Positions 35,987-61,155 of a stretch of DNA of 64,000 nucleotides are shown here, in pieces. The DNA lies in NCBI GenBank assembly GCA_022826965.1, contig JAJDTU010000009.1, positions 62,001-126,000 of the forward strand. The letters run 5' to 3'. A program made the translations under genes and the position numbers. This DNA is from Dehalococcoidia bacterium (GTDB lineage Bacteria; Chloroflexota; Dehalococcoidia; Bin125). Each line of letters begins with the position of its first letter. Within the stretch, counting starts at the first letter, position 1. Under the pieces are notes generated by a model. It made no database searches. It was not told the DNA's origin and saw only the letters and a list, made by a program, of their open reading frames with translations.

Positions 35987-38500
35987 TCAGCGAGCTTGCG
36001 CCTTTCTCGCCGCCACGTCGTCCATCGTGCCGCTGATCCCGCGCTCCACCAGCGACCGGTACTCGGCCTCCGTCATCCCCAGCTCCTGCGCGAACACCTC
36101 GTACGAGTGCTCGCCGACACAAGGCGATGGCCTCAGCTCGCGATCCTCCGCCCCGCTCAATCGCCACGGCGCCCCGGGCAACCACGACGGTCCGACCTCA
36201 GAATGCTCGACCGACTGGATGAACCCGCTTGCCAGGTAGTGTGCATCGGGCTCCGTGAACTGCTCGTAGGGCCGCGCAACCCGAGCCGCGTCAACGCCAA
36301 CAGCCAACAGCCGTCGTTCCACGTCCATCGAGGCTTGATCGGACGTCCAGTTCGTGATGACCTCGTCCAGCTGCCGTTCGTTGGCCTTGCGCGACGCCAC
36401 GCTCGCGAACCGGGGATCCTCGGACAGATCCGCCCGGCCAACCTCCTCGCACAGCGCCTGCCACTCTGACTCGGAATGCACCGAGATCGCGACCCACTCA
36501 TCCTCCCCGGCACAGCCGTAGATGTTATGTGGAGCTCGCTGCCTGTCGAAGTTGCCGATCGGCACCGGAATCCGACCCGTGGCGTCGTACTCCACAATCG
36601 AATCCCCGACCACCACGCCCATCGCCTCCAGCATCGCCACGTCGATCCGCTGAGGCCCGTCCACTCGCTCGCGCCGGGCCAGCGCCGCCATAATCGCCGC
36701 CGCCATCGAGTAGCCGGAGATCGAGTCCGGATACAGCCCGCCCGTGTTCATGCCCGCATCACCCTCGTATCCGTGAATCGACGACAGACCCGACATCGGC
36801 TCGGTCGTCGCGCCGTTCGCCGGATACGCCGAAAACGGTCCCGTCGCGCCGTATCCCGAGATCGACGCGAGGATCACGTCCGACCGCTGCTCGGCCAGCG
36901 CTTCCAGCGTGATGCCCCAGCCCTCGAGCACGCCCGGCCGGAAGTTCTCGCAGATCACATCAAAGCTCGGCATCATTCGCCAGAAGATCTCCTTGCCTTC
37001 GTCGGTGCCCAGATCGAGCGTGATCCCCCGTTTGTTCAGGTTGACCGCGTTGTACACGCCCTGCAGATTCTCCGGATGCTGCGTCCTCGAGTCGTCCCGG
37101 ATCGCGTCCGGCACCCACGGCCGCAGCAGCCGCCAGATGTCCACCCGACGCAGCGCCTCAATCTGAACCACGTCCGCACCCAGGAACCCCAGCAGCTCCG
37201 TCCCAAACGTCCCGCTCCACGCCTGAGTAAACGTCAGCACCCGAACCCCATCCAGCGGCCCACGTCGGGTCCCGATGTCCTGCTCTTCCCCCGCTCCAGG
37301 CTGCCACTCTCCCCCCGCTCCCTGATCCATTTCTCCCCCCGCTCCGCGGGGGGAGATGTCACGCAGTGACAGAGGGGGGCTCGCCTCTGCAGAAACGGCG
37401 TCCAACCTTGGCGCCGCCGACCGCACCGACCAACTCGGCGGACTCATCGGATGCGGATCGCCTGACGCCCGAACTCGCTCGCCCTCCAGCTCCGTCTCGA
37501 CAATGAACCCCCGCGCCGCAAACTGGTCATTCTCAACCAGCTCGGCAATCGTCTGCATCACACCGGAAATGCAACGTAACTGCGCCAGTCGGTGAAACAG
37601 CGGCCACTTCTCCATCTTCGGCAACTCACGAGCCACCCCGGCCATCACCGCCGACAGATCCTTCGAGTACCGCGCGTTGCGCGCCTGTAGGTCTTCGCGG
37701 GCGCCCTGTTCCGGCAGATTGAACAGCGCCATCGCCTCGGACCAGTTGTGCCAGTCACCGAATCCGAAGTTCATCCGGCCATCCGCCGCATCCCAGAGCG
37801 GTCCCGGCTCTCCCCGAGGCCGCCCGCCCGTGGCCCCCCGCGACCAGCCTGTGCCCTGGTAGATCGCGCTAATCGACCACGGATAGACGGTGTGCGTCAT
37901 CGCCTCCAGCTCGCGCACATCGACGAGCTCGGGCGCGTCGGACTCATACCGGCGATGCAAGGCCGCCGAGCCCGCGACGAAACCGGCCAGTCCGCCCATG
38001 TAACCGAATTGCCGCGACGGCAGCGTCAACGGCGATTCGTCCCTCAGGGCATTCACGTAGGCCCACCCGCAGCGCGCGTTCAGCGTCAGATTCCCACCCG
38101 GCGTGTCGGCCAAGGGACCGTCCAGTCCGTACGGAGTAACCGACAGATGCACCGCGTCACGTCGCATCGCGGCCAGCGGCCAACGCTGCAAGGCTTCACC
38201 GCTGTCGGTCGTGATCACCACGTCCGCGCGGGCAATCCAGGGTTCAGCTTCTCCAGGCTCGCCGATCACGGCCGACCGCTTGTTCCAGTTGATGTACGCG
38301 TGCAGTGCCGAACGCTCGACTCCCGAGACATCCCCCAGGAACGGCGCCTCATGACGCAGAGGATGACCCTCCGGCGGTTCCAGCATCACCACGTCCGCAC
38401 CATGGTCCCCAAACAACCGAGCCGCAAACGCCCCCGACATCCTCCGCGACAAATCCAGGACCACAAGTCCCTCGTAGGCGCTCACCAGAGTGTCGCTCAT
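35987..38500 (-). CDS. Two-domain family III CoA-transferase
   Basis: This 837-residue protein consists of two CaiB/BaiF domains in tandem (about 10-355 and 420-837). Each has the family fold and the Asp-containing segment that carries the acyl intermediate: VDVRELEAM in the first and IDVAMLEAMG in the second. The second domain starts GVRVLTFTQAWSGTFGTELLGFLGADVVQIE. The linker at about 358-415 is low in complexity. Its residues around 374-390 are an in-frame translation of a dispersed palindromic repeat (37332-37380), giving SPPLSLRDISPR. The fusion probably works as an intramolecular dimer; the CoA donor and acceptor are unknown. Confidence 0.85.
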   Translation of the reverse strand: MSDTLVSAYEGLVVLDLSRRMSGAFAARLFGDHGADVVMLEPPEGHPLRHEAPFLGDVSGVERSALHAYINWNKRSAVIGEPGEAEPWIARADVVITTDSGEALQRWPLAAMRRDAVHLSVTPYGLDGPLADTPGGNLTLNARCGWAYVNALRDESPLTLPSRQFGYMGGLAGFVAGSAALHRRYESDAPELVDVRELEAMTHTVYPWSISAIYQGTGWSRGATGGRPRGEPGPLWDAADGRMNFGFGDWHNWSEAMALFNLPEQGAREDLQARNARYSKDLSAVMAGVARELPKMEKWPLFHRLAQLRCISGVMQTIAELVENDQFAARGFIVETELEGERVRASGDPHPMSPPSWSVRSAAPRLDAVSAEASPPLSLRDISPRGAGGEMDQGAGGEWQPGAGEEQDIGTRRGPLDGVRVLTFTQAWSGTFGTELLGFLGADVVQIEALRRVDIWRLLRPWVPDAIRDDSRTQHPENLQGVYNAVNLNKRGITLDLGTDEGKEIFWRMMPSFDVICENFRPGVLEGWGITLEALAEQRSDVILASISGYGATGPFSAYPANGATTEPMSGLSSIHGYEGDAGMNTGGLYPDSISGYSMAAAIMAALARRERVDGPQRIDVAMLEAMGVVVGDSIVEYDATGRIPVPIGNFDRQRAPHNIYGCAGEDEWVAISVHSESEWQALCEEVGRADLSEDPRFASVASRKANERQLDEVITNWTSDQASMDVERRLLAVGVDAARVARPYEQFTEPDAHYLASGFIQSVEHSEVGPSWLPGAPWRLSGAEDRELRPSPCVGEHSYEVFAQELGMTEAEYRSLVERGISGTMDDVAARKAQAR
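37332..37380 (-). repeat. R1 palindromic repeat, copy 1 (inside a gene)
   Basis: Read on the minus strand it has a C-run with TCTGTCAC-TGC-GTGAC, then a CTCCCCCCGC-GGA-GCGGGGGGAG hairpin. It lies inside the CoA-transferase linker and is translated in frame without a stop. Confidence 0.85.
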
Positions 38501-38528
38501 GGCAATCTCACAAGGTCGCCTTCTGATC

Positions 38529-38561
38529 CCCTCTCCCTCTGGGAGAGGGTTAGCGTGAGGG
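38529..38561 (-). repeat. R2 palindromic repeat upstream of GMC gene
   Basis: CCCTCTCCC and GGGAGAGGG form a 9-bp stem with a short loop, followed by TTAGCGTGAGGG. This is the reverse orientation of the copy at 61103-61138. Confidence 0.75.
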
Positions 38562-38671
38562 TTCCCGGCCCGGCAGGGGACACGGGGTTCAGGTGAGGGT
38601 TCTGCTCTGCGTCACGTTATCGGATGATCTTCCAACGCTGACCTATCCTCTGCCGACAGGTGGAGGACGCA

Positions 38672-40204: not shown

Positions 40205-40277
40205 CCCGCTCAGATCCCCTCTCCCGGAGGAGACCTGCGCGCAAACCAACAAAGTCGGCCCGGTGCCGTTCAAAGTC

Positions 40278-40297
40278 GGCACCGCGCAGGCGGGGCC
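40278..40297 (+). repeat. R3 palindromic repeat, degenerate copy
   Basis: GGCACCGC-GCAG-GCGGGGCC is an 8-bp stem with one mismatch, between the GMC gene and the small protein gene. It is related to copies at 40660, 40872 and 50145. Confidence 0.6.
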
Positions 40298-40363
40298 CCG
40301 CCACCCACCTGATACCGGGCCGGCCCCTCCGCCAACCACAACACTTATACCGTACGTCCGTTC

Positions 40364-40392: not shown

Positions 40393-40779
40393 ATGCCAAA
40401 CCCATTCCACTACCGAACCCACATCAACCAGCTCTGGCGGACCGTCAACGGACCCAACCCTGGCTACATCCGACTCCGCGCACTCGACGCACTGGCTCGC
40501 GATCTCATCCCCGGCCGCCCCCGCTACGCCATCGCCCAGCAAATGCTCAACGCCGTCGACGCCTACGAGTACGCCCGCCACCTCCTCCGAAACCTCTACG
40601 ACGGCCCCAACCAACCCGACCCCGGAAACCTCGAAGTCGCCGCCGCGCTACTCAAAGTCGCCCCCGCGAAGGCGGGGGCCCCTTCCGACGCCTCCCTCTC
40701 CCTCCCCCTCCCTCCAGGAGAGGGTTCCGTTGCCATCACCGAGGAAGAACCACGTGACGAGGGCGACGACCCCTTGTAG
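40393..40779 (+). CDS. Uncharacterised small protein, paralogue A
   Basis: This 128-residue protein belongs to no family I recognise. It is clearly paralogous to the product at 50114-50443: both start MPNP(F/Y)H(Y/F)R, share LWRT.N...PGYIRL.ALDA.AR.L and end in DDPL. The N-terminal 75 residues look helical, with several Arg and Tyr. The C-terminal third includes in-frame translations of two dispersed palindromes (APAKAGA and LPLPPGEG). AAGGAG lies 6 bases before the ATG. The 3' flank has a T-rich stretch also found after paralogue B. Confidence 0.7.
   Translation: MPNPFHYRTHINQLWRTVNGPNPGYIRLRALDALARDLIPGRPRYAIAQQMLNAVDAYEYARHLLRNLYDGPNQPDPGNLEVAAALLKVAPAKAGAPSDASLSLPLPPGEGSVAITEEEPRDEGDDPL
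40660..40679 (+). repeat. R3 palindromic repeat inside small protein gene A
   Basis: GCCCCCGC-GAAG-GCGGGGGC is a perfect 8-bp stem with a GAAG loop. It is translated in frame as part of VAPAKAGA. Confidence 0.8.
40692..40724 (+). repeat. R2-like degenerate repeat inside small protein gene A
   Basis: A pyrimidine-rich run with CCCTCCCTCC and GGAGAGGG resembles the R2 repeats but is imperfect. It gives the LPLPPGEG stretch of the protein. Confidence 0.45.
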
Positions 40780-40820: not shown

Positions 40821-40871
40821 GCGCCGAACCCCGACCCTCAGCCCCGCCGTGCCCGCTCCACGGCCACAGTC

Positions 40872-40891
40872 GGCCCCGCGCAGGCGGGGCC
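40872..40891 (+). repeat. R3 palindromic repeat, GCAG-loop copy
   Basis: GGCCCCGC-GCAG-GCGGGGCC is a perfect 8-bp stem. Compared with the 40660 copy, the second base pair is changed on both sides (C-G to G-C). Confidence 0.75.
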
Positions 40892-40947
40892 CCGCCGCAG
40901 ACCGGGAGCAACACCCCCGAATGCTGACCGGAGATGCCGCAATCAGC

Positions 40948-50113: not shown

Positions 50114-50443
50114 TTACAAGGGGTCGTCGTCTTCGTCGGGTTCGGCCCCCGCCTTCGCGGGGGCGACTTCGGCGTTGAGGGGACCCTGACCCCGGCCCTC
50201 TCCCAGAGGGAGAGGGGGTAAGAGGGAGGGTTGGTCGTGGAGGTGGCGGAGTTTGTGCTGGGCGACTTCGTCGGGGTCGGTGGCGAGGTACATCTTGAGG
50301 TTTTGGCGGGCCTTGTCGGTGGGTCGGTAGAGCGCTCGGGCGACAGCGTCGAGGGCGTTGAGTCGGATGTAGCCGGGGCGGGAGCTGTTGGCGGTTCGCC
50401 AGAGTCGGTCGATGCGGGCTCGGAAGTGGTAGGGGTTGGGCAT
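50114..50443 (-). CDS. Uncharacterised small protein, paralogue B
   Basis: This 109-residue paralogue of the product at 40393-40779 has no family I recognise. The N-terminal 70 residues align without large gaps. The C-terminal part again contains PLPLGEG and APAKAGA stretches encoded by palindromes, but in reverse order compared with paralogue A. It ends DEDDDPL. AGGAG lies 7 bases before the ATG. Both copies sit in the repeat-rich accessory region on opposite strands. Confidence 0.7.
   Translation of the reverse strand: MPNPYHFRARIDRLWRTANSSRPGYIRLNALDAVARALYRPTDKARQNLKMYLATDPDEVAQHKLRHLHDQPSLLPPLPLGEGRGQGPLNAEVAPAKAGAEPDEDDDPL
50145..50164 (-). repeat. R3 palindromic repeat inside small protein gene B
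   Basis: It has a perfect 8-bp stem, the same sequence as the 40660 copy when read on the minus strand. It is translated in the same frame as VAPAKAGA. Confidence 0.8.
50180..50216 (-). repeat. R2 palindromic repeat inside small protein gene B
   Basis: CCCTCTCCC-AGA-GGGAGAGGG forms a perfect 9-bp stem. It encodes the PLPLGEG region of paralogue B. Confidence 0.7.
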
Positions 50444-50520
50444 GGTTGAGCTCCTGGGTGAGGTATGGACGTATGTTCTGATAGTAGTGGGTTCGGTTGG
50501 GTTGTGGGAGGAATGGTGTG

Positions 50521-50576
50521 CCCCCCTCTGTCACTACGTGACATCTCCCCCCGCCTGACGGGGGGGGGGGGAGAGG
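50521..50576 (+). repeat. R1 palindromic repeat, copy 2
   Basis: C-run, GTCAC-TAC-GTGAC, then CTCCCCCCGCC and a G-run of twelve. It lies between small protein gene B and the VWA gene. Confidence 0.8.
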
Positions 50577-50587
50577 GGAAGGGAGGG

Positions 50588-50623
50588 CCCTCACCCTGGC
50601 CCTCTCCCTCGGGGAGAGGGGAC
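50588..50623 (+). repeat. R2 palindromic repeat next to R1 copy 2
   Basis: CCCTCACCCTGG followed by CCCTCTCCC-TC-GGGGAGAGGG. It is directly downstream of R1 copy 2 and upstream of the VWA gene stop. Confidence 0.7.
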
Positions 50624-50659
50624 CGGAAGGGAGAGGGCCTTAGGGCGAGAGGGGCGGTG

Positions 50660-52525: not shown

Positions 52526-52652
52526 GTGGTCCTCCTGACCGACTGATTCGGGGCGGCAGATTGACGACCGGCTGTCGCCCCGTTGGAGGGTTAGACGATG
52601 TAAAGCGGGATATAGTTCCCGGATCGCGACGTGGAGTGAGGCGGGCGGGGAG

Positions 52653-52704
52653 CCCCCCTCTGTCCCTACGGGACATCTCCCCCCGCCTGACGGCGGGGGG
52701 AGAA
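52653..52704 (+). repeat. R1 palindromic repeat, copy 3
   Basis: C-run, GTCCC-TAC-GGGAC, then CTCCCCCCGCC-TGAC-GGCGGGGGGAG. Compared with copy 2 the fourth stem pair is changed on both sides (A-T to C-G). Confidence 0.85.
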
Positions 52705-52786
52705 AGGGAACGGGGTGAGAGAGGGGAAGGGAGCGTTCGCCTATCATTTGGCCAACGAAACAACCTGTAGATGAAATGAGGTCATC

Positions 52787-53648: not shown

Positions 53649-53701
53649 AAATTGGGGCGGCCCTTGTGGCCGCCCCTTTGCATTCGGCGACGTTGCGGGA
53701 G

Positions 53702-53746
53702 CCCCCCTCTGCCTTCGGCATCTCCCCCCGCTGCGCGGGGGGAGAG
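53702..53746 (+). repeat. R1 palindromic repeat, copy 4
   Basis: C-run, TGCC-TTC-GGCA in place of the GTCNC stem, then CTCCCCCCGC-TGC-GCGGGGGGAG. The first stem is different in sequence but still pairs. Confidence 0.8.
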
Positions 53747-53768
53747 CGGAATCGAGTGAGCCGTGGGG

Positions 53769-54832: not shown

Positions 54833-54884
54833 CCCCCCCTCTGTCTCTACGAGACATCTCCCCCCGCTCGGAGCGGGGGGAGAA
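54833..54884 (+). repeat. R1 palindromic repeat, copy 5
   Basis: C-run, GTCTC-TAC-GAGAC, then a CTCCCCCCGCTC hairpin. The fourth stem pair is T-A here. Confidence 0.85.
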
Positions 54885-54903
54885 ACGGGGGCGGGGACGG
54901 GGA

Positions 54904-59874: not shown

Positions 59875-59877
59875 GAG

Positions 59878-59911
59878 ACCCTCACCCTCTCTCTCTCTCT
59901 GAGGGAGAGGG
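59878..59911 (+). repeat. R2 palindromic repeat after DUF1501 gene
   Basis: CCCTCACCCTCTCTCTCTCTCTGAGGGAGAGGG, with an expanded CT run in the loop. Confidence 0.6.
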
Positions 59912-59941
59912 ATCGGAGTGGCGAGAACCGTCGGCAGTGGA

Positions 59942-61032: not shown

Positions 61033-61102
61033 GTCGGGCTCGATTGGGCGCGAGGGAACTGCGAATCGGAAGGTTGATCGTTCCTGAAGCAGCGGACTGC
61101 GG

Positions 61103-61138
61103 ACCCTCACCCTAGCCCTCTCCCAGAGGGAGAGGGGA
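61103..61138 (+). repeat. R2 palindromic repeat before NTase gene
   Basis: CCCTCACCCTAG then CCCTCTCCC-AGA-GGGAGAGGGG, a perfect 9-bp stem, ending about 18 bases before the GTG start. Confidence 0.75.
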
Positions 61139-61155
61139 CATGAGGAACTGACATC

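Follow-up and report, generated by a model that had tools for sequence, protein, structure and literature searches.

A dispersed palindromic repeat read in frame within CoA-transferase linkers and other proteins of a Chloroflexota genus

The repeat R1, a GC-rich palindromic sequence of ~50 nt with two hairpins, is best explained, with a probability of roughly 0.88, as a non-autonomous palindromic element dispersed within one genus of the Chloroflexota, whose in-gene copies are survivors located in loops and linkers, and at which the fusion of a P0002-type CoA-transferase probably took place. A full copy lies inside a gene of the window, i.e., the whole stretch of 64,000 nucleotides that was analysed. 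The best-known translated palindromic elements are those of Rickettsia and Wolbachia, and it is debated how they arose and what they do to proteins. The features of the host gene and its R1 copy are as follows.

35987..38500, minus strand: host gene, a double class III CoA-transferase (CaiB/BaiF) of 837 aa (ORF and Pfam)
37268..37387, minus strand: inter-domain linker, residues 372-411 (pLDDT < 50 between the domains)
37332..37381, minus strand: full R1 copy, translated SPPLSLRDISPRGAGGE, both hairpins perfectly paired (profile match and alignment with ~40 genomic copies)
37281..37328, minus strand: two extra 24-nt tandem copies of the R1 3′ arm (GGAGCGGGGGGAGA...), translated GAGGEWQP and GAGEEQDI (sequence)

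The PF02515 (CoA_transf_3) profile matches two stretches of the 837-aa ORF above its cut-off (E 1.9e-131, Pfam). A sequence-only reading had proposed that a full R1 is read in the CaiB linker with neither stop nor frameshift, and this was borne out by a profile match at 37327-37381 on the minus strand (60 bits, E 1e-17, search within the window) and by coding bias specific to one frame: the SPPLSLRDISPRGAGGE frame is stop-free and is the sole frame with coding potential on both sides of the repeat. The nucleotides of this copy match other genomic copies at up to 94% (BLAST), and we infer from coding bias and orthology that it is translated. That reading recognised the R1 copy itself and overlooked the two additional arm copies. 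Because the 3′ arm recurs twice more at 24-nt spacing, the whole repeat-derived peptide of the linker, SPPLSLRDISPRGAGGEMDQGAGGEWQPGAGEEQ, comprises ~33 residues rather than 12, including the arm-repeat series GAGGEMDQ/GAGGEWQP/GAGEEQDI; the tandem at 37281-37328 is not reported by Tandem Repeats Finder at score 30. The peptide predicted across the R1/host junction is LDAVSAEASPPLSLR. In the structure model of the protein (mean pLDDT 81, pTM 0.88), residues 372-411 are a long low-confidence stretch and the linker bearing R1 is shown as unstructured, low pLDDT in an insert shared by few aligned sequences being weaker evidence of disorder than usual.

Orthologues of the host CoA-transferase are present in every genome but one among the 15 of the genus, and they are fused in every species with a complete gene, other genera included. 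In the closest species on the tree (G004), whose orthologue is 88% identical, the linker reads VLGSDDREPRRSELDRPVSVPTTKG and lacks R1, which is also absent from the linker in G001, G005, G008, G011, and G012 and in the outgroups of other genera; the outgroups G017-G019 have a fused gene without R1, so that the fusion is older than R1 in this family. Two R1 copies in opposite orientation occupy the linkers of G003 and G002, with a partly decayed version in G009, and the linkers of G014, G013, and G010 hold a single copy in the opposite orientation, SPPAKRGEMPKAEGGS. Comparison of these sequences indicates that the linker of the window family gains, loses, and exchanges R1. The repeat had been predicted to be an insertion missing from close relatives and bounded by clean flanks. 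Its absence from the closest relative and from others was observed, whereas the flanks proved not to be clean, since the entire linker, which is Pro/Gly-rich in all orthologues, evolves fast and since other species hold R1 in other orientations. Owing to these flanks, a gain in the lineage of the window's genome (G000) is not separable from a loss in its sister G004. The distant orthologues have unrelated linkers and do not share the linker sequence, as they might if it were ancestral.

In-frame copies are also found in unrelated conserved genes, and the orthologous site is in most cases empty in congeners. Of the 80 R1 loci retrieved from other species, which are the best-scoring copies and not a random sample, nine lie in frame inside recognisable genes (L097, L119, L123, L124, L128, L130, L137, L144, and L153). 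The hosts are MurE, TatD, a DUF885 protein, a terminase, and three CoA-transferase families, i.e., the window family, the P0002 family, and a third that also bears R1. MurE contains R1 in 9 of 15 species, with a gap in the remainder, and TatD contains it in 6 of 13, sometimes in decayed form. In the DUF885 protein, the sister species G002 and G003 have a full R1 in one orientation and G005 has R1 at the same place in the opposite orientation; the copy is decayed in G008, and most other species are without it. The filled and empty sites of these three proteins support the earlier suggestion that R1 is mobile, and the in-frame copies in the linkers of three CoA-transferase families agree with the accompanying idea that it is tolerated at domain linkers. 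The insertion site of TatD corresponds to seven residues in the best solved homologue, and for MurE the quality of the AlphaFold model (pLDDT 48) did not permit its use. In two of the six R1 reading frames, only a minority of genomic copies is free of stops (16% and 41% open), and the in-gene copies read in these usually closed frames are stop-free variants, as would be expected if survival of the host protein filters insertions. The host genes with an R1 insert show coding bias and intact domains, and their proteins may be translated and functional. Read-through at L045, L061, L096, L136, and L165, which are 5 of 11 further coding-bias calls, was rejected by eye and with Pfam as shadow frames or gene-edge cases. 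One of the in-frame hosts, at L137 (G014:C32), is the large subunit of a phage terminase (P0007), so that phages of these hosts may carry R1.

The linker of the second CoA-transferase, P0002 (G000:C11:88393-90744), contains two R1 copies as an inverted pair. The two domains of this enzyme are encoded by separate genes in different frames, with a stop/start overlap TGATG, in three species of the genus (G006, G007, and G012) and in two of other genera (G017 and G019), and they are fused in ten species, all ten junctions of which have an R1 match. The junction scores are 45-60 bits in six species, 23 and 28 bits in G013 and G005, and 19.3 and 12.5 bits at the decayed junctions of G001 and G009 (short-type profile built from non-coding copies); with the long- or short-type R1 profile, all ten are higher than the best of 1500 shuffled junctions (10.0), where the use of two profiles means that the weakest case, G009, needs care, and the species are non-independent samples. 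The same profiles gave no R1 match at any of the five split junctions. Since R1 is present at 10/10 fused and 0/5 split junctions and two of the split cases come from other genera, the split arrangement is likely the ancestral state near the genus. We therefore lean, with some reserve, toward a course of events in which R1 landed on the overlapping stop and start of the coupled subunit genes, removed the stop, and brought the second gene into frame, the repeat-derived linker then joining both domains in a single chain in some species of the genus. R1 would thus occupy the junction of formerly separate genes in place of the stop, and the fusion would have cost the first gene its end. In G000, G010, and G014, the second domain is in a different frame from the ATG within the inverted R1 copy, and re-initiation there would not yield that domain. 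Solved relatives include benzylsuccinate CoA-transferase, which has two such subunits, making a single-chain version structurally reasonable.

A competing course, which we consider quite possible and still the less probable one, is that the fusion of the P0002 family first arose otherwise and R1 invaded the linker later, or that the split genes were derived by fission. The late invasion could be argued from the window family, where fusion predates R1, and from the low scores of the most decayed junctions in G001 and G009, and the fission from homologues at 36-39% identity, which are fused; both sit poorly with the distribution of R1 over fused and split junctions and with split genes in other genera. 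Separately, a contig of a metagenome-assembled genome from another genus (G018:C6:14525-15688, L247) carries a sequence 86% identical to P0002 with an R1-like sequence at its end, and this contig is probably contamination.

The R1 consensus is GCCCCCCTC-TGTCNCTNCGN'GACA-T-CTCCCCCCGC-nnn-GCGGGGGGAGA, and a subtype has a short inner hairpin, TGCC-TNC-GGCA. In its own genome, R1 gives 54 BLAST matches, corresponding to at least 40 distinct copies, and the window contains four further full copies.

50520..50569, plus strand: R1 copy with coding potential on at most one side (profile match)
52651..52708, plus strand: R1 copy with a longer terminal hairpin (profile match)
53700..53750, plus strand: R1 copy of the short inner-hairpin type (profile match)
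54834..54885, plus strand: R1 copy near the ends of two minus-strand ORFs (profile match)

With a covariance model, R1 was found in 12 of 12 sampled congeners, 11 of them with at least 20 copies (counting stopped at 30), and the deep-branching G007 gave one weak match; no match came from the two other genera of the family that were sampled. Among 185 genomes from other genera of the class, only four have matches. One of the four, G167 (family f72), is far from the genus and has 16 weaker matches to the model, suggesting an independent or transferred relative of R1. An array of at least five short-type copies within ~2 kb was noted at L116 (G010:C4:377895-379949).

The inner helix is 100% paired in 37 aligned copies, and 22 cells are changed on both sides compared to 6.7 in shuffles, a number larger than in all 500 shuffles, which overstate compensation owing to the shared ancestry of the copies. 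In 87 distinct copies of the genus, the variable position of the inner stem is occupied by A-T (55), C-G (21), T-A (7), or G-C (4) with zero mismatches, and four pair types at one position would be hard to get otherwise than by compensation. This strong compensatory pairing, together with the many R1 copies that adjoin gene ends, could be taken to mean that R1 is kept as a functional RNA or DNA element, such as an mRNA stabiliser, a terminator, or a protein-binding site, and that its in-gene copies are selected and not tolerated. Such a function is unlikely, given that the presence, absence, and orientation of R1 differ among congeners in the same gene, that conserved hairpins would also be expected in recent copies or in an element that needs the structure in order to move, and that R1 matches no Rfam family at its threshold. 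The known RNA families whalefall-1 (11 bits, threshold 37) and sR32 were rejected as chance-level matches that are inconsistent between R1 copies.

Far less likely still are repeat-driven chimeras arising from the assembly or binning of metagenome-assembled genomes; several contigs end inside R1, e.g., that of G004 at the second CoA-transferase, but the window copy lies well inside its contig, and different species, each with a genome of its own, have in-frame copies at the same site, the two gene halves continuing in frame. That the linker is ordinary ancestral low-complexity protein sequence merely resembling R1, as its composition and fast evolution in all orthologues might suggest, is hardly credible for a structurally perfect 60-bit copy whose close genomic matches include intergenic ones, which the closest relative lacks, and which recurs in unrelated proteins.

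The dispersed element favoured here can be compared with several known repeats. Rickettsia palindromic elements (RPEs) were reportedly described by Ogata et al. in 2000 and 2002. RPEs and the protein-coding palindromes of Wolbachia are dispersed both between genes and in frame in unrelated conserved proteins, where they are tolerated (PMC2229807, PMC10969869), and R1 resembles them in being dispersed, in lying between genes and in frame in unrelated conserved proteins, and in being missing from orthologues. In contrast to the classical RPEs of Rickettsia, whose size is 105-146 bp (PMC2229807), R1 is only ~50 nt long, GC-rich, composed of two hairpins, and found in Chloroflexota; it is also read in both orientations and several frames and is present at gene-fusion junctions. 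Because R1 stands in frame in several genes, mostly with empty congener sites, and at fusion junctions, the RPE resemblance noticed from the sequence alone is right in kind, and R1 is called RPE-like with respect to its behaviour only.

Repetitive extragenic palindromes (REPs) with GTAG and CGTC tags are mostly intergenic and often paired in opposite orientation. According to Di Nocera et al. 2013 (PMC3733652), some lie in frame within genes; such intragenic REPs occur in several Proteobacteria, and cases are known from O. terrae, Thauera, and R. conorii. R1 shares with them the short palindromic units, the opposite-orientation pairs, and the occasional in-frame position in genes. The unpaired GTAG end was not found in the R1 consensus GCCCCCCTCTGTC...GGGGGGAGA, nor was the association of GTAG REPs with RAYT (Y1_Tnp) seen for R1. 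The CGTC REPs, which have no known transposase, are defined by an unpaired CGTC/TGTC/CCTC end tag, an 8-9 bp AT-starting stem, and a CCA tail (PMC3733652), whereas the TGTC of R1 is paired within the inner stem and R1 has neither such a stem nor such a tail. REPIN/RAYT-mobilised REPs are likewise palindromic and, as with R1, include some inverted pairs; unlike them, R1 lacks the GTAG tag, and RAYT (PF01797) is absent from 14 of 15 genomes, that of the window included. As a mobiliser of R1, RAYT was rejected, its one weak match (G008) having no R1 within the surrounding 3.2 kb. A plasmid origin of R1 was also rejected, with one partial match only. Comparable palindromes from other bacteria, such as ACCCCCCTCTGTCACTTCGTGACATCTCCCCCTCAAGGGGGGAGAT, were observed in thirteen viral-contig stretches (L232-L244); they have the inner hairpin and C tracts of R1 and a different terminal loop.

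Collectively, R1 could be described as an element that is REP-like in form and RPE-like in behaviour, spread within one Chloroflexota genus. New copies would land at many places, plausibly through recognition of a single-strand hairpin, and an in-gene copy would survive only if it is stop-free in the frame concerned, keeps the reading frame, and lies in an exposed loop or domain linker. With regard to the terminal inverted repeats and target-site duplication of a MITE, filled and empty R1 sites are too diverged at their edges to define a target-site duplication. The double CoA-transferases would collect R1 repeatedly, in both orientations and several frames, because their linker is long and disordered, and the window copy would be one such insertion that now serves as a passive spacer peptide.

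No R1 or similar in-gene element of Chloroflexota is described in the open-access literature searched. The kind of element is known; new, as far as our searches reach, are the R1 family, its host group, the resolved succession of occupied and unoccupied sites, and the connection with a gene fusion, the repeat as a gene-fusion linker being the freshest part. R1 extends translated palindromes to another phylum. It is GC-rich, apparently recent, and confined almost entirely to one genus, and the related species are numerous enough for the same genes, among them MurE of peptidoglycan synthesis, to be observed with R1 in place, half decayed, inverted, or missing. How protein linkers, and possibly fused genes, originate from selfish DNA can thereby be traced directly.

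Other palindromic families were noted in the window. A second dispersed palindrome of the CCCTCTCCCAGAGGGAGAGGG type is located at 38527-38572, 50181-50225, 50585-50629, 59876-59920, and 61101-61145, and a third family, GTCGCCCCCGCGAAGGCGGGGGCCC, at 40271-40309, 40653-40691, 40865-40903, and 50134-50169. Close to the third family lies a diverged inverted repeat of 115 nt (40392-40506/50330-50444).
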